The position numbers were made by a program, and so were the translations under genes. The notes beneath the pieces were generated by a model, which saw nothing but the letters and a program-made list of their open reading frames with translations, made no database searches and was not told where the DNA came from. From contig JAMYHL010000006.1 in assembly GCA_025531455.1 (NCBI GenBank), positions 434,001 through 498,000 on the forward strand: 64,000 nucleotides of DNA, written 5' to 3'. This document shows positions 8,511 through 46,300 of this stretch, piece after piece (positions within the stretch are counted from its first letter, which is position 1; each line of letters starts with the position of its first letter). Source of the DNA: Apiotrichum sp. Y4204 (Eukaryota > Basidiomycota > Tremellomycetes > Trichosporonales > Trichosporonaceae).

Positions 8511-11500
8511 GAGATGCTAGGTTGTATCACAGAGTTGTCAGCTGGATCCGGCACCAGGAGAGTCCATGGCTAGGCTGCTGTCGTGCAAGTGTTCCGCGCA
8601 GTCATACGCCCTCGTAGACTTGCATGTTTTCTTGCGCTCTCAAAGGTAACACTTCGGCAAGATTCATTGCTGAAACAGAACCCTAGCCCTGCTAGCCCTA
8701 TAGCCCTGCGTCCATATGTATTTACGTCCGTGTGAGTGTGATGACATTGGTACTAGGGGCCCCGTAGGTGTGAGTGATCTACATGATCGGTAGGATCGAT
8801 CTGGATGATCAACATAACCTGCAATCTATGCAATCTACAAGATCAGCACATACGTCAAGATCGTCGAGCCTGAGGATTCAAACGAAAGACTGCGGTTTCA
8901 TGAGCGAGAGGCCCGTGGACATGCCGCCAGTTGGGGACAGTTGCGGCTGTTGCGGTGCATGGCCATCGGAGGTTTGGACTCGCGGACTTACCAACCCCGT
9001 GTCCGTGTATCGGCCGTCGTCGTCCCGATAGCCAGATGATCGGTAAGAACAGACGAGGTGCAAGGCAGCTCGCTAGACATGGCGCTTACTACTGTTCTCA
9101 GGTCCAGCGGTACGGGCGCACTCCGAGCTCTCTCCGAACTCCGGCCACGACGGCCACTCCGATCCCTTGCCATCCTCGGCCCTGAGCTCTGTCGTCCGAC
9201 ATTCTCTCCGGACCGGAGCATCGCGGACATACCCCTCGCCACCGAGGACTCGGCGTACGCACCGCCCTATCGGCCGATATCCGCCGGCACAGCACACCGC
9301 TCAACGACTCTGTGCTCTGTGCGCATCCACGCATCCAGGCATCCCACGTAGTCACAATTCATCAAACCTCGGGGTCTCGGGATACCAGGTCCGGCTCCGT
9401 AGTGGCGGGCGCTCGGTCTCGCTGCGTCCCGCCGACATGCCAGGGACGCCATGCGCGAATGCAGAACTGTCGCGTACTGTCGACGACATCCGTCCCTGTT
9501 GCGGACAGCTCGCAGCACCTTGATGAACGCATGACGGTGCATGCTTGGGCAATTGCGCGCTTGAGCCCAACAACCACGTGCTGCCACACTGAGCACCTCG
9601 GGGCCTCGGGGCTCGAGCACCGGAGCATTCGCGCACCGGTCACTTGGCGGCCCTGCAGGCCTGCAGCCTGCGGAGCCACATGCCACAAGCGGCAACCAAC
9701 CAAAGTCGCCGAGCAGGCCGAGTACATCGCCGAGTCCGACAGGCCGGAGATTCCTGAACGCTGAGGCGGCTCACCAGAGTCCGCCCACGCCGCGCGTAGC
9801 CATACCAATGGTGCCTCAGATTCGAAAACGACTTTTGGTTCTTTCAAGGTCTTCTGGCCCCTTGCCCCTTGTTTCCAGCTCCTGTGGACCTCGGTACCTC
9901 GGCGTACAACGTCCAATACCGGTGCGGAATGTGGAATAATCCGCGAAATGTGACATTCGAATGGCTCGTGGCCTCGGGGCCTCGGATTCGCAGATTGATT
10001 GCCAGCTCTGGCGCGATGGCATCCGTCGCGAGATCGCAGGGCGCTAGGCGCCGGACCTCAGTGGGTCGCTGACTTCTGGCTTCTGCGCCCTCCGCCCCGA
10101 CTGCGCCTCGCAAGCGATTGCAAGCTTGCTCGCATGGGCGCATGGGTCGAAGCGCGGCCAGCGCGGGCCACCGTCCCGCGGCCTCGCTTGCAGCTTGGAT
10201 CCTCCGGGACCGCGGCTCCCGCCACGGGCACAGCTGCCGTTGCCCGTTGCGCTCCGACCGAGTCGGGCAATGCCAAGGGCCGAGCCCGGAGCCGCGCGGA
10301 GTACGTTCATGCGCTTCGTGCGCAGGCGCCCTGCCTTGTCGTTTCTCGGGCTTCTCAAGAGTTCGGGAGCACTGCAAACTGGCGCGGCTGGGTCTTCCCT
10401 CGCCGTTCGCATTTGCCTCGCGCTTCCCGTTGGCCTTTCGTCGTCTCGGGCTTGTAGATATGCCCTGGGCAAGCTGGCCAAGCTGGCACCCAATCTGCGT
10501 GCTGCACAAGGCATAATGATTCCCATACAATACATACATGGCCGCTATCTCCACGCTGCGCGCTGCGCATCCATGCATCCATGCGGTGCGATGGTGCCCC
10601 TTCGGTCCGGGTGTGCCTGATGCTACACCGCTGGTGCATGGTCCAGTCGCCGGCGTGATACCGTGGGTGGCCTCGGTCGTGGGTATTGGATCACCTGCGC
10701 CCCTTCCGCGCATCCTATGATCGTCTGACTAGTGCTTTAGTGAGCTAGTGGCCAAAGGGGTGCTGTGACTCGGAGACTAGGAGAACCGGGGCCGGGGGAT
10801 GGGAGGGGGCGGAGGGGGCACCGCGCCATTGTCAGCCACATAGAGCGGAATTGCGGAAGTTCTCCATGCACCGCGCCTTCTCGGCAGCATGGGCAGCCCA
10901 TGAAGCCCAGCTTGGCCTGCCTACCTGCCTGCTGTTGGCCCATTTCCCCGGGTCAGGAATTAACTATTTGTGCCGTCTGCTCGGGCCTGAGGCCGTCGTG
11001 CCGGGGCCGAGGGGAATGGAAGGAGCAGCCGAGCGAGAGGCACGAGAGCGAGACCCAACAAGCTAGAGACACTCGTTTCTGCGCTCGGGCCACTGGCCAC
11101 TGATCCACTAAACCCTTTTGCCTTTGCATGCCTTGACGCCTTGCGGCATCGAGATTGACTAGAGCTCTAGAGGACCGCCGTCACGCCGTTATGACAGTTC
11201 ATGCAACAATGTTTATGTTCGGGCAGTTCCTTGCCCCATGTGCAGAGCAGCGCGGATGACTGGAGGGCGAGACCGGAGATAGGAATTTAGTCAGGCGAGG
11301 TGTCGTATGTAGCTTGCAGTGAATGGGCGTGCATGGAACGCCAGCGCTTGCATGCATGCACGATTTCTCACTCGCCGCGAAGGCCCAGGCTGTGCCGCCG
11401 AGAGCGCGCGGCACAGAACAATGTGGCCATCGCCGTAAAGGGCTAAGGGATGGGTTGGGCGGTGGCGGCCAGATTCCTCTGCTCTGGAGCCTTCAACTCG

Positions 11501-38117: not shown

Positions 38118-39663
38118 TCACGGTGTTCCTGCCGTTAATACTGCTGGCCAGGGAGAAGTAGCAGACTCACCGCCAAGGAACCTATCAGCCATGATCCTCT
38201 GCTGCTCCCAGTCATTCTTGAACACGGCCAGGCCGACCAGGATGCCAGCGACGAAGACTGGCGTGAGCGACGAGTCGTGACACGGCTTATGAACCGTCCG
38301 ATAGCCGCGTTACTCACAGACACAGCTCCAAAAGAGCCAGAAGGCGCCCCAGAAGCGCGAGCCCCCAAACCCGAGGAGCTTGGCGTATTCTGACGCGTCG
38401 GATGAGTTGACTTTGCGCTTGAGCGTGTCCTGCCGTCAGCAGCTGGCCTCATAGGATATAGTCAGCTGGAGGGTGGGTTAACTATGAGCCGGTGACTCAC
38501 ATCAACAATGTCCCACTGATGTTAGCAGATCAGAACAAGTGACATACATCTGCACTTACGATACAGTACAGACACGACATGACGCCGAGGAAGAGGACGA
38601 GGAAACGCAGCGCGATTGAGTGGTATACGAGCCATGCCGTCTGATGTGAGTTATGACATGGAGAAAGGGGAAGAGAAAGTTATGAGGGCAAGAGAATGGT
38701 TGTGAATAGAAAAAAAGAGGAGGAGAGAACATGGGAAACCGACGAAAAAGCATAGAGAGAAAGACATGCGATGAGAGGGAAGACAAGAACAGTGACCCTC
38801 GACCGAAAGGGCCGAAACCTGCCCTCCCAGTACACTATCCCTCCCCCTGCACTCACCACAATCAACCCCGCCGCAAACCCGATCGTCGCCCACGCAATCC
38901 AGCTCCTACGCGCCCAGAACAGGGTAAGCAGGAAGAACACGCTGAGAACGAGGCACGCGACGCGCGATGCGCAGGTATCAAAGCCCTGTATTTATCAGCC
39001 CACACCACTCCACCACACGAGCGCACGCACACAGGCGATCAGACACGCGCCGATAAAGCTGCTCCCGAGATACCCGGCCGGGAGGGTGACGAACGGGAGC
39101 CCGCCGCGCATGCGGGTTGCGCCGCCCTCGCGCGGGTCGAGCTGCAGTCAGCTTTCGCTACACAGGATGCGTACCGAGATGGACTCTACCCGGCCGCAGG
39201 TCAGCACGGCCGCGAGGGCGTGACACATTTCGTGCATGCCGACTGTCTGTCGTCAGCTATACCCCGGCAAAAGACGCACGAGGAGCTTGAAGGGATAGAT
39301 GAGCTCGCAGAGATAGGGAACTGGGGATCAGCAGTGATACACATACACTTTCTTGATTCTCGACGTGATTCTCAACGTACCGTGCCTGTTATCAGCCACA
39401 CATGCCGCGCTCGAGCACCCACCACTGGGGTTAGTCCGGCCAGTTCCTGTCTGCATACTTGTACAAGTCCGTGATTCGACTCACAACTGCCGTCAGCCTC
39501 GTTCTGTTCCTCTACACGCACGGATAGCGATGAGCACGACGTAGCCGCACACGACAGCGAGGGTGACCTCCTGCGTTGGCGTGGGCGTGAGCGCCGCAAC
39601 GACGCGGGTCTTTGCGTCGTCGCGCGCTACGAGGGCGAGGGCGTGGTCGTATATCGGAGCCAT
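38118..39663 (-). CDS. M50B-like membrane metalloprotease, 13 exons, apparent frameshift
   Basis: Exons: 39663-39522, 39486-39485, 39424-39423, 39385-39381, 39320-39280, 39246-39175, 39141-39031, 38986-38857, 38640-38560, 38515-38501, 38429-38318, 38257-38171, 38128-38118; about 269 aa. Conserved features: VGMHEMCHALAAVL with the HExxH zinc motif, DPREGGATRMRGG, TLPAGYLGSS, GFDTCASRVACLVLS, and VWDIVDDTLKRK-like YCIWDIVDDTLKRK; several membrane segments. This matches fungal peptidase M50B-like proteins, intramembrane proteases of unknown substrate. Exons 2-4 are only 2, 2 and 5 nt. Exon 8 contains one base too many at 38940/38941, so the gene is frameshifted as given, either by sequence error or as a broken allele. 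Confidence 0.75.
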
Positions 39664-40394: not shown

Positions 40395-43300
40395 CTACGC
40401 AGCAGGGTCGTCCGGCTCGCGCTCCGCCACGGCACGTTTCATGCGCGCAATCAGCTCTGGGAGGCGGTAGGGCTTTATGACCACTGCAGGGTTAGTATTT
40501 ACGGGCGATACACAGAGAGGCTGGACGAATGGTCCGTTCCACAGACCACCCTCATGTCCACTCACCATCGTCCATGCCGGCCTTGACCGCTTCGTCGATC
40601 TGGCCCTGGCGCGCGTTGCCTGTAAGCGCAATGACAATCTGCTTGCGCAGCGCGCCCGTCGCCTCGGCCTCGCGGATGTGGCGCAGCGCAGTCAGACCGT
40701 CCATGATCGGCATTTCGAGATCCATAAGCACGACGTCGTAGTCTGTGCGGTCACCGAGACGCGAGCGGCGGTGCGCCTCGTGAATCGCTATGAGCGCTTC
40801 CTGACCGTTGTTCGCAACGTCGCACGTCAAGCCGGCGCGCAGGATCTGGCGCTTGAGCACAGTCTGGTTGATGACATTGTCTTCCACAATGAGGATGTGC
40901 AATGGGAGAGGCTTCGGAATGGAGTTTGAGCTCGACGACTTGGACTCGAGCGACGGGCGCACAGAGCTAGGCGACCCGGACAGCGATTTGGCGATTGTCG
41001 ACGTTGGAGAGGGCAGCTCGGCCACACTGGACGGAGCCGATGTCGACAAAGTCAAGCTCTCCTGGGGCTCTACCGACGAAACGGAGAAAGAAGTCGAATT
41101 CGAGTTGCTCGACACAAGGTCAGGCATAGCCGCGACGTTGACGGCAGAGGCTTTGATGTAAAAGTTGAAGACGGAGCCCTCTCCGACCTTGCTCTGCACC
41201 TCGATACCGCCGCCTAGGAGATCTGTGATTTCTGCCATGAGCCGAGAACCTCATCACCACACTCACTCTTGCAAATAAACAAGCCAAGACCGGATCCTCC
41301 ATACCGCGTGTGGATCATCTTGTTCCCTTGATGGAAGCGCTGGAAGAGTACATCCTTCTCGGCGGGCGTCATTCCCGGCCTGGTATCGCGCACGCTGATG
41401 AAAAGATACACAGGCGTGTCTTCGGCTGGCGGAACTCCGGGGGATCCGTATGAATGCGGACGTGGATCGGGGTGGACGAACGTGCCCGGGAGCGGGGGTT
41501 CGAGGCTGACATCGTACGTGACTGTAATGCGGCGCACGTCCGAAGCGGCCGTGAACCGGATCGCATTGGATATAAGGTTGGTGATGACCTGTCCGAGACG
41601 GACGGGATCCGTCTTAACGCTGTGTATCCGGAGTTGATCCAGTGTGGGGCCAAACACGAGCTTGATGTCAATCTTCTTCATCCGCGCCTCAGAGGAGAAG
41701 ACACTCAAAACCTTGCGCGCCTCACGCCGCATGTTCATCTCAATGTCGTGCAGTGACAACATGTCGAGCTGGATACGCGCGAGCGAGAGGACATCACCGG
41801 CAATGCGCTCCTGTACCAGGCCGCACTGGAAGATACCTGCCGTCAGTTGAGTGCTTTGAGAATCATCACTATAGACTCACTGTCAAGTGCTGTCACATCC
41901 TCCTCGAGATCAGCAAGCAACTCTGCCGAGGGACGGAATCCTGCCTCGCCGGCAAACCGCAGTTGCTGCTTCAAGGCCACGAGATTCTCCTTGACGAGCG
42001 ACGAACACTGGAGAATGGCCGACACCGGGGTACGGATCTCGTGAGAGATGAGGTCCACCAATAGCTCTTGCTGATGCTTGCTCTCCTCTGCTTCCTGCCG
42101 CCGCTTCTCCGCCTGGGTGAGCTTCTCCTCCTGGTATGAAATGTCCGTAATGCAGCCAATTATACCCCGCATCTGAGGATTCACCTTGTCCAGGCGGATA
42201 AACACGCCTGACATGGTGCGCCCGGTGTTCCACTTCCACTGTATCTTGGTCGTGGTGCGGTCGCCGTGTATGATCTCCTGCCAGGTGTCTTCAAGAGCAG
42301 CCCAGGAGTCGGGGTCGCAGTGGGTCGACCACCGGTTGAGGTCCTCGCCGGGTTGCAGCCCGGCAGGTTCAAGGAACGCCGCGTTCGCGTACGTGAGATT
42401 GCCGTTCGCATCCGTGCGCATAATGCCAGACGGGCAGTAGTCTGAGAGAACGGCAATTTCCTGCTCGCGCTGGGCGAAAAGCTCCTCGAGCTTGGTGCGT
42501 CGCTTGCCCATCTGCATGTGCAGATGCACGCGCAGCAAAAGCTCTTTCGATCGGAACGGCTTTGCTAGGTAGTCGTCTGCTCCGGCCATAAACGCATCGA
42601 CGCGGGTTTCGGCATTTGACGCGGCAGAGAGGAGCACCACGGGGGTTAGCTTGCTCCTCGACTGGATGCGTATATCGTTGAGGAGATCAAGACCCTTGCC
42701 ATCAATCATGTGCTCATCAGACAGCACGAGATCGGGTCTCAACTCCTCGACAGCGCGAAGGGCCTCGGCCACACTTCCGACATCCACGACGTCGCAGTAG
42801 GGCTCGAAGATACTCTTGATGTAATCGCGGAGGTCCTTGTTACTGTCCACAACAAGCAGGCGATCTGTGGGCTCGAACATGAGTCCGTCGATTAGACCAT
42901 CGCGTACGGGTTCGGAAGCATCAGAGCCCTCGGACGGAGTCGCAGTGCCTTCAGTCTCCTCGGCCCACAACATGACCTCCTCGGCCATCTGCCGAGCGTA
43001 CACGCCGGGCGAAACGGCATCTCGCGGGATGCCATTTCGTGAGGTTGAGGATGCTGCCTTTGTGGTAATCGGGATGCGCGCAGTGAACGTCGTACCATGC
43101 GCGTGTCCGTCCACTTCGCCATCGGTGTCAATGTTCAGCGTGCCTGAGTGAAGGCGGACGATTTCTTTGACGAGCGCGAGTCCGATGCCCACACCGTTGA
43201 GACTCGAGCCGAGGTCGGGGGACGACGAGGTCGCCGTCTCCATGCGACTGAGCCAATCGGTGGCGGAATCGAGTTCCTCAAACGGCACACCTATCCCAGA

Positions 43301-46300
43301 GTTGCTGATCGCAATGCTCGCTGAGCGGTCATCATACGTCAACTGTACAGAGATGCGGCCGCGCTTGGCCATTCGCACAGAGATGAGCATAAGGTTGCTA
43401 ATCAGCATCTCGAGCAGGTCGGGATCAACGTTGAACATGTCGTGGCCTCGCGTTGCCCCCAAACTGACGTGTAGTTCGAGCTGGAGGTGCTCCAAGGCTC
43501 CGCGGAACATGCCCGCAATCTCGCTCACAAACGAGTTCAGGTTGGTGCGCACGAGAATGGCCTGAACATGCCCGCCCTCCATACGGCTGAAATCGAGAAG
43601 CGCGCTAACGAGCTGCTGCAATCGGTGAGCGTGCTTGAGCGCCATACCAAGCTGTTGTCGCTGTCTTGGCTGAAGGCTCGTGTGTTGTAGATCTTCAAGG
43701 GGGCCGGAGATCAAGGTAAGCGGAATGCGGAACTCGCGCGCACTGCCGCGGAACCATGCAACCTTTGCACGCTCGAGCCTTTCCTTCTCCAATTGGCGGG
43801 CGACGTCTTCCTCGAACGCGATCGCCGAGGTGAGCGCTGATGTGAGATGGGCACGCATGCCCTGCAGCCAGTCCTCATACGGTGCGTCCAACGGGCGGTA
43901 GAGGTTGAGGCCGATAATGGCAACGCCAGAGGGAATCTGCGCGCTCAACTCGGAGCAGATGGGGATCACGATTGCCATGTCAGGTAGCTCGTCCCAGTAC
44001 CGCACGGGGAGACCCTCGATGATGCTCGAACAGTCCTCAACAACTACGCACTGCCGCAAGGTAAGTGCGCGGGCGATGGGCCATGGTGTCTGCGAATTTT
44101 CTGTAGGTGTGGACTGTGGGCGGGTGGGTGAGTGGAAGGACGGGCTTGAAGTGTTGCCTGGTGGAGTCGGGGAGCCTAAGATGTTCAAGGCATTGTTGGA
44201 GGCTGGGGAATTGAGCAAGCTCAGTCCATTTGCCAGACGCTCCAGACTGTGGGTCGACGACAGCACTGGCGATGTGCCAGGTGGGGCACTAAAGGAGCTG
44301 CGTGCGCTGTTTGCCGCGCGTGGGATAGCATAGCGCAGTCGGCGCGGGGCGCAGGGATGGTCGGTGGGGACGCCCACGGTCGACGCGAGATGGAGGTCGA
44401 CAGTGGTGGTGGTGTGGGGATCCGAGCTAAAGGTGGAGACGGACTTGTTTTCCTTGACCGAGTAGCAAATGACAAACGGGGCGTCAGCCGCATTGGGCTC
44501 AAACCCGGCCGCGACAGCTTCGAAGAACGCGGACTGGGAGCGGGCGGCGGATGCACGCTCGACAACCTCGCGGGTGGTTTCCGATCGACGGTCGGCAAGG
44601 ACACGCGTTGTAGTGCCTTGTGACGGGTTGTACACTCCGAGGACCCTTTTGTTTGCGTCCACGATGGGAATCAGTGAATAGCTGTGGTAGCGTTCAACAA
44701 AGCGGCCGCGCTCGTTCCGCTGGTGAAGGATGAGTGCGTTCTCGAAACGCATAGGTTCCCCGCTCCATACCCGCATCATCAGGGGTTCAAGATACTGCCA
44801 CAGCGGCGCCCAAACCTCCTTCTGCGGCCTCCCAAACGATTTCGGATGATCCACCATGATCGAGTAGCTTTGGTTGCTGCTGTCAGTAAACCTTGCCCAC
44901 CTGCACTCCCTCACTAGATCATGTTAAACTCCGGCCCGATGTAGACGCAATCCTGTGTAAACGAGGAGAAGGCAATGTTTACCATGGCCAATATCTCTGG
45001 CGCCCAGCTTGATGGCGGTCCTATACTCGTAGTCGACCAGTCGTACGTCTCAAACAAAATATGACACTGTGTCGCTACAGGAGGTGGCTCTCGCGGGAAG
45101 TCTGCCTCAAAGTCCATGAGACTCTGATTATCGCGCTCCTGCGGAAGGATGAGGCTGTGGTTGGAGGTCTCCATTCGATTGGCCACGGCATGGGGCCCAG
45201 CGCGAACATTGGGACCGACAACATCAGACGTCCTACGTGGTGCGCCCGGGTCCTTTGCTGCCGAGATTGCTGTGAGAATGACGAGACAGTACCCTGATGA
45301 GTCTGGTGGGCCGGATGATCTCGTCTTGACAAGTTCGAGTACGACGAGGGGATGGCCAATCTCGAGTGCAAAGACTAATGGTGGTGGATCAGTTCCCTCA
45401 TAGTCGGTCTCTGCCTCTGCCCATGCTTGTAGGGCGGCGAGCGTGTGGGCTTCGACAATGTCGTGTAGTGAGCGATTTTTAGTGATGGCCTGGGCATGGC
45501 GATTGGACCAGGCAATGGTCATCCGACTCGACAGTGGTGCAGATACGGGAGGCACGATGACGTTTTCAGGAATGATAGATGGACCTCCCAGCAGCTGGCT
45601 TCGACGTTTGCTAACGGGACTTGATGGACTGGAACCTGATGGGCCGGTGACATTTCTTGCGCTTGTTGCATTTCTTGCACCTGTTCCATTTAGTGGGCTT
45701 GGCGCGCTTGTTCCACTAGGGTTCACGGGAGTAGTCTCTGGAGACAATGTTGGCGGCAAGTGCGGGGTGTCTGGGTGGGTCGGGGTGGTGGACGAGGTGG
45801 ACGTAGAGTGGTGGGTACAAGTTGGGCAGACCTGATCGTCGTAATTTCCGTCGCAGCAAGCAGCAGACTCTGCACTGGCGACGCTGGTAGGCTCTGTGCT
45901 CACTGGACTCGGGACGTCGGTCCAGTCGTCGAGTTCCGCGGGGCTCGACGAGCGCGTGCTGGATACGGATGTGTCGGTCGGCTGGCGGACGGTGACATCC
46001 GTATCGCGCGAGATGAGGGAGGGTCGTGAGGGACCGGACGGAGCAATGTACAGGGAGGGATCGATGGCGGCTCGTACTCGCAGAACAAAGGCCGGGAGGG
46101 GATATGACTGGGTGAGTCAGCAACCGTGATGCACGCAACCGGACAGCGCGGACAGAGTGCAGAGCAACATGGATGAGAGCGACGGTTGCTGCGGCGTGGC
46201 GTATCATGCTTCAGCCAACCCGAAGCCGAAGCGATCTGTCCGCAAGCCACACCTTGGACCGACGCCTTGAATGTTTGATGTGGATGCAGCTGTTGTATTA

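Follow-up and report, generated by a model that had tools for sequence, protein, structure and literature searches.

A predicted run of three consecutive micro-exons of 2, 2 and 5 nt in a Peptidase_M50B-like gene of Apiotrichum sp. Y4204

The M50B-like gene of Apiotrichum sp. Y4204 described here very likely contains three coding micro-exons in a row, measuring 2, 2 and 5 nt, as judged from its genomic sequence. The gene lies on the minus strand of the window (the whole 64,000-nt stretch of DNA analysed, from a 48.9-Mb assembly of 182 contigs) and runs from an ATG at 39663 to a stop codon ending at 38118. Its model comprises 13 exons and 12 introns, with a coding sequence of 810 nt that specifies 269 amino acids with no internal stop. 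From the first to the twelfth, the introns measure 35, 60, 37, 60, 33, 33, 45, 216, 44, 71, 60 and 42 nt, 11 of the 12 being 33–71 nt long. Inclusion of the micro-exons in the mRNA and their constitutive use are most likely, a reading that draws on the splice signals, the frame, the encoded peptide and conservation in a second copy of the gene. The product matched the Peptidase_M50B-like family PF13398 at 183.1 bits (cut-off 26) and carries the HExxH metal-binding motif as HEMCH, encoded in exon 6. An Rfam scan of the 64-kb window returned no matches.

Exon 1 (39522..39663, 142 nt; all features of the gene are on the minus strand) runs from the ATG to GTC GTG CTC ATC GCT ATC C. Intron 1 (39487..39521, 35 nt, GTGCGT...CTGACGGCAG, branch CTGAC at 39496-39492) separates it from exon 2, the dinucleotide TT (39485..39486). 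Intron 2 (39425..39484, 60 nt, GTGAGT...CTAACCCCAG, branch CTAAC at 39434-39430) is followed by exon 3, the 2-nt TG (39423..39424) that supplies the first two bases of a Trp codon. After intron 3 (39386..39422, 37 nt, GTGGGT...CTGATAACAG, branch CTGAT at 39395-39391), the 5-nt exon 4, GCACG (39381..39385), contributes the third base of the Trp codon, a His codon and the first base of a Val codon. Intron 4 (39321..39380, 60 nt, GTACGT...CTGATCCCCAG, branch CTGAT at 39331-39327) then leads to exon 5 (39280..39320, 41 nt), which begins TT CCC TAT CTC TGC GAG and extends to the LL preceding TVGMHEMCH. Together the three micro-exons provide 9 nt (TTTGGCACG) that complete the L-W-H-V codons of L-W-H-V-P, a motif placed where the first long predicted helix ends and ahead of the helix with HExxH, and an mRNA with full inclusion of exons 1 to 5 is predicted to contain ATCCTTTGGCACGTTCCC. 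A preliminary description of this locus had listed the same coordinates, exon letters, four donors, AG acceptors, branch motifs and intron lengths (35, 60, 37 and 60 nt), all of which are present in the sequence, and its joined peptide, AILWHVPYLCELIYPFKLL, could be reproduced.

The remainder of the gene consists of exon 6 (39175..39246, 72 nt), exon 7 (39031..39141, 111 nt), exon 8 (38857..38985, 129 nt), exon 9 (38560..38640, 81 nt), exon 10 (38501..38515), exon 11 (38318..38429, 112 nt), exon 12 (38171..38257, 87 nt) and exon 13 (38118..38128, 11 coding nt including the stop). Exon 10 is another micro-exon, of 15 nt, encoding WDIVD; around its site the deposited Cryptococcus proteins are distorted too, with an insertion in P0031 and deletions in P0037 and P0121.

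The preliminary description went too far in presenting this as the sole splice set that keeps the frame. We enumerated the GT-AG chains that link exon 1 to exon 5, requiring introns of 30 nt or more, an exon 1 donor no more than 12 nt from the one given above and a fixed last acceptor, and found 201 of 921 chains to be open and in frame (2 of 3 with one intron, 45 of 174 with two, 110 of 500 with three and 44 of 244 with four). It is the peptide that decides among the chains. The pattern W-[HYNQ]-[VIAL]-P ahead of YLCEL was produced by 3 of the 921 chains. When the minimum was raised to 33 nt, the length of the shortest of the gene's other introns, 1 of 645 chains produced it, namely the TT/TG/GCACG set. 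The accompanying claim that these exons restore W-x-x-P was thus upheld, no other chain achieving it in the window under that minimum. The second copy of the gene, on C94, is less unique in this respect: with no intron shorter than 33 nt, 8 of its 1,062 chains gave W-x-x-P, among them the TT/TG/GCACG set and one with strong donors in which an exon CAGTT replaces TT. Apart from the TT/TG/GCACG set, exactly 9 nt can be inserted in just one way if no intron is shorter than 30 nt, namely as a single 9-nt micro-exon, GCACGGTAC (39385-39377), yielding AIRTVLPYLCEL. This exon requires the donor GTTGAG, whose score of -8.9 is among the poorest of the interval, and it loses the conserved W-H-V; we regard it as extremely improbable.

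The predicted splice sites of all four introns combine GT-AG ends, a branch motif and a high donor rank. When scored with a matrix of the 16 donors of introns 5 to 12 in the two copies, introns that had themselves been placed using protein logic, the four donors used ranked 1 to 4 of the interval's 20 GTs in the window. Among the 22 GTs of the C94 interval their ranks were 1, 2 (tied), 2 (tied) and 5, the last being GTGGGT. This intron 3 donor is the weakest of the four, with a score of 5.6 against 5.3–10.0 for the training donors. Of 13 AGs in the window interval, only the four used have a CTRAY branch motif with its A 6–7 nt before the intron end, a fifth AG having such a motif at a distance of 13; in the C94 copy, likewise only the four used among 12 AGs have the CTRAY A at 6–7 nt, with two others at different distances. 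L-W-H-V was obtained by any GT-AG chain in 5 of 20,000 dinucleotide shuffles of the interval, and in none when strong donors and branch sites were required; a W at that place arose in 1,490 of the 20,000 with any GT-AG chain, and again in none with the signals required.

Sites in which a branch-AG, 1–8 nt and a strong donor follow one another number six in the window, three of them being exons 2 to 4, and 40 Markov simulations gave 3.1 such sites per window (sd 1.6). Micro-exon-like sites are not rare singly; it is their clustering that is the odd feature. The other three lie at 10733 (plus strand, 7 nt), 52631 (plus strand, 7 nt) and 57664 (minus strand, 5 nt). Around 52631 and 57664 the second copy aligns over the full stretch without a net difference in length (601/601 and 551/551, at 96% and 95% identity), and both look like plain coding DNA and hence chance matches. 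Around 10733 the second copy is 90% identical (551/559).

The 9 nt affect the protein differently according to how they might be lost. Skipping one or two of the micro-exons would shift the frame and leave a protein of 76–126 aa, and retention of any one of introns 1 to 4 alone would bring a stop within 67 aa. Skipping all three would give 266 aa with only W-H-V lost. The latter is the product of one of the open in-frame chains, a single 201-nt intron (39521-39321) that yields AILPYLCEL and would be removed whole, the inner splice-like sites being decoys. This chain keeps the frame, exactly its three-residue gap recurs in seven deposited relatives, and PF13398 barely distinguishes the two products: the Pfam alignment proposed in the preliminary description as a check did confirm the family, but scored 183.1 bits with W-H-V against 180.3 bits without it. 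A single intron nevertheless leaves unexplained that, in both copies, the best donors and the only well-placed branch-AGs spell the missing L-W-H-V. Moreover, the gap in the relatives is as large as unrecognised micro-exons would make it, and the annotation breaks differ among relatives from three Tremellomycete orders. We consider removal as a single intron improbable.

A second alternative is that the three micro-exons exist but are alternatively spliced as a block, so that 269-aa and 266-aa proteins are both made. The 9 nt would then behave as an all-or-none cassette, with four introns, an obligatory order of removal and two readable messages, one for 269 aa and one for 266 aa without W-H-V, while partial products, being frameshifted, would probably be destroyed. 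The total of 9 nt is in frame, and only full inclusion or full exclusion keeps it so. Such a choice could also matter to the protein: a structure model of the relative P0001 (60 aligned relatives, mean pLDDT 90.1) places W52-H53 at the end of helix 32-53, the first long helix, ahead of the helix 62-82 that holds HELSH (72-76), and on this model loss of W-H-V would shorten the link from the first long helix to the catalytic-type motif. If the cassette were true, no smaller series of consecutive exons would be known, and it would offer a natural means of regulating a membrane protease. Against this stands the retention of W in 149 of the 166 relatives listed, and we consider both block splicing and its cassette form unlikely. 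The best PDB match of the P0001 model was the archaeal site-2 protease 3b4r_A, at E 0.48, and the fold search of this model gave no matches at E 0.001 or better.

The relatives were collected in two protein searches, from which the best 120 of 1,101 and the best 120 of 577 matches gave 166 different proteins. The best named relatives listed belong to Cutaneotrichosporon, Kwoniella and other Tremellomycete yeasts; Kwoniella and Cryptococcus are both Tremellomycetes. The 149 proteins with W carry it after L, F, I or V and shortly before YPFK, and they include P0001, from C. oleaginosum, as well as P0004. The 17 listed relatives lacking it are 15 Tremellomycetes, Phlebia P0122 and Gymnopilus P0147, the last an N-terminally short protein. 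W is missing from the deposited annotation of 15 of the 18 named Tremellomycetes listed. Seven of the 18 (P0002, P0003, P0005, P0006, P0009, P0014 and P0020) lack exactly three residues, seven (P0007, P0008, P0011, P0031, P0037, P0085 and P0121) have R-H-V-P or E-H-V-P after other residues, and P0015 has an unrelated insert. The three that keep W are P0001, P0017 and P0010, the last with an extra YELTTV. We read the distorted Tremellomycete proteins as probable cases of micro-exons overlooked by annotators. This would be an annotation pitfall: in many Tremellomycete yeasts, including Cryptococcus, the same three residues beside a catalytic motif are absent from the deposited proteins or distorted in them.

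Two of these proteins were back-translated. PANNYR, which precedes HVP in P0031, fits a branch site and acceptor of the form ...GCTAAC...TACAG/GCACG, and ELTTV in P0010 fits ...CTGACNACAG/TNTGGCACG. Taken as the faint hints that they are, these back-translations suggest that the class may have had intron 3 for a long time and that Cutaneotrichosporon sp. HIS471 may lack introns 2 and 3. For Cryptococcus, the deposited proteins yielded no complete exon structure that was consistent throughout. P0004, on a contig no longer than 1,536 nt, has LWHVP in an uninterrupted ORF, and spliced RNA is its probable source; other proteins from short contigs likewise hint at splicing in relatives. The deposited P0122 protein of Phlebia brevispora reads ILWHVVTSRHVPYL, with L-W-H-V, extra residues and H-V twice, a repeat that suggests a misplaced intron at the same motif outside the Tremellomycetes.

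A second M50B-like gene, also present in two copies (L003/L004 on C112/C98), contains ...AGIFWNAPILRDA... uninterrupted. This paralogue pair was rejected as a further micro-exon case, F-W-N-A-P (paired by eye with L-W-H-V-P) being contiguous in one exon in both copies. A single exon can thus carry W-x-x-P, and its fragmentation is peculiar to the gene at 38118-39663 and not a feature of the whole family.

A syntenic copy of the window lies on C94 (about 703-751 kb). In the six stretches compared its identity was 87–96%, and its presence points to a hybrid yeast or one that carries two subgenomes for some other reason. The M50B-like gene is 87% identical at the DNA level between the copies, over 1,597/1,601 bases. 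The gene beside it at 41900-44900 is also duplicated on C94, at 95% identity; since this neighbour is duplicated too, the copies form a homeologous block. The C94 gene follows the same 13-exon model, with TT, TG, GCACG and all eight splice sites kept. Exon 1 differs by 10 substitutions and no gaps, exon 5 is identical at 41/41 positions, and introns 1 to 4 have drifted in length to 38, 60, 40 and 64 nt. The micro-exons themselves are identical in this copy, conservation in other species having been judged from deposited proteins. Between the copies dS is 0.159 and dN 0.011, and because dN/dS is 0.068 the gene is under constraint. As the copies are close (dS 0.16), their agreement is supportive but modest rather than decisive evidence. 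Assembly error or a pseudogene would have to be reconciled with two syntenic copies that agree, with this dN/dS and with 810 nt free of any frame break; no evidence for either turned up, and we give both practically no credence.

Intron 2 is 56/60 (93%) identical and gap-free between the copies, above 8 of the 11 other introns (range 73–95%). A hidden longer exon at this position was rejected, its retention leading to a stop (the TAA in the branch site) and a product of 65 aa.

Three consecutive micro-exons remain the reading best supported: the signals alone pick the same eight sites, the peptide matches the relatives and the syntenic copy agrees. Partial loss would truncate the protein and full loss would remove W-H-V. 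The preliminary description had also spoken of exon definition of a 2-nt exon, which is probably the wrong frame, short introns allowing recognition across introns. Introns of this length are naturally recognised across their own span, and each of the four (35–60 nt) would be recognised by its own donor and branch-acceptor pair, that is, by intron definition, and with recognition across introns no exon definition would be needed. An exon of 2 nt is close to the smallest that splicing can join, and with two in a row followed by one of 5 nt, neighbouring introns could hardly be handled simultaneously. They would probably be removed one after another, since 2 nt offer no room for the splicing machinery of two adjoining introns at the same time; removal of the first would fuse a micro-exon to a larger exon and so free its other splice site. 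If confirmed by RNA, the locus would lend itself to testing whether introns are spliced stepwise by intron definition with no exon definition involved. RNA-seq data have been described for Trichosporon hybrids and their relatives (PMC6642101).

Close-set fungal introns are also known as stwintrons, which are clustered and removed stepwise (PMC8469720, PMC6616335). In a stwintron, an intron sits inside a splice element of a second intron, whereas the M50B-like introns are each a complete GT...AG with coding bases between them. We rejected a stwintron or nested intron here, introns 1 to 4 each having a contiguous donor, branch site and acceptor.

Exons of comparable size have been described elsewhere. 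In plants, a 1-nt exon was described in APC11 of Arabidopsis (PMC4674806) and 1-nt exons in APC11 and VPS55 of land plants (PMC8831610). Like these, the present case concerns coding exons that are probably constitutive, two of them below 3 nt, missed by annotation and deduced from frame and a conserved protein; unlike them, where a single micro-exon was shown by RT-PCR and expression constructs, the fungal gene is predicted from genomic DNA to have three in a row. Neighbouring micro-exons occur in rice Os08t0562700, where adjacent exons of 5 and 12 nt, the smaller unannotated, were shown by RT-PCR sequencing (PMC8831610), so that rice has two with 17 nt in total and the M50B-like gene three with 9 nt. 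In human RPS24, exons 4 and 6 flank three micro-exons (PMC11162997). Among fungi, a 20-nt micro-exon switch regulated by glucose was described in Xlr2 of Trichoderma virens (PMC11121469), likewise a fungal micro-exon overlooked by gene models, albeit longer and regulated. The P450 genes of Phanerochaete chrysosporium share with our gene a basidiomycete origin, small introns and micro-exons, which are common there, with a shortest exon of 6 bp (PMC1184071); the accessible text of that paper reports no run of exons below 6 nt, which sets them apart from the 2+2+5 run. In the open-access literature on consecutive or fungal micro-exons we found no run as short as 2+2+5, although this does not prove that none exists. 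Another fungal case is CYP621A in Fusarium, with a 1-nt exon supported by SRA reads and called the first in a fungal gene (PMC12940212). Both are fungal, both place an ultra-small exon within a conserved motif and both were found by comparative reasoning, but CYP621A has one 1-nt exon and SRA reads, whereas the M50B-like gene has two 2-nt exons and one 5-nt exon, consecutively. Exons of 1 nt were thus already known, and what is new here is the predicted, extreme consecutive run of 2+2+5 nt.
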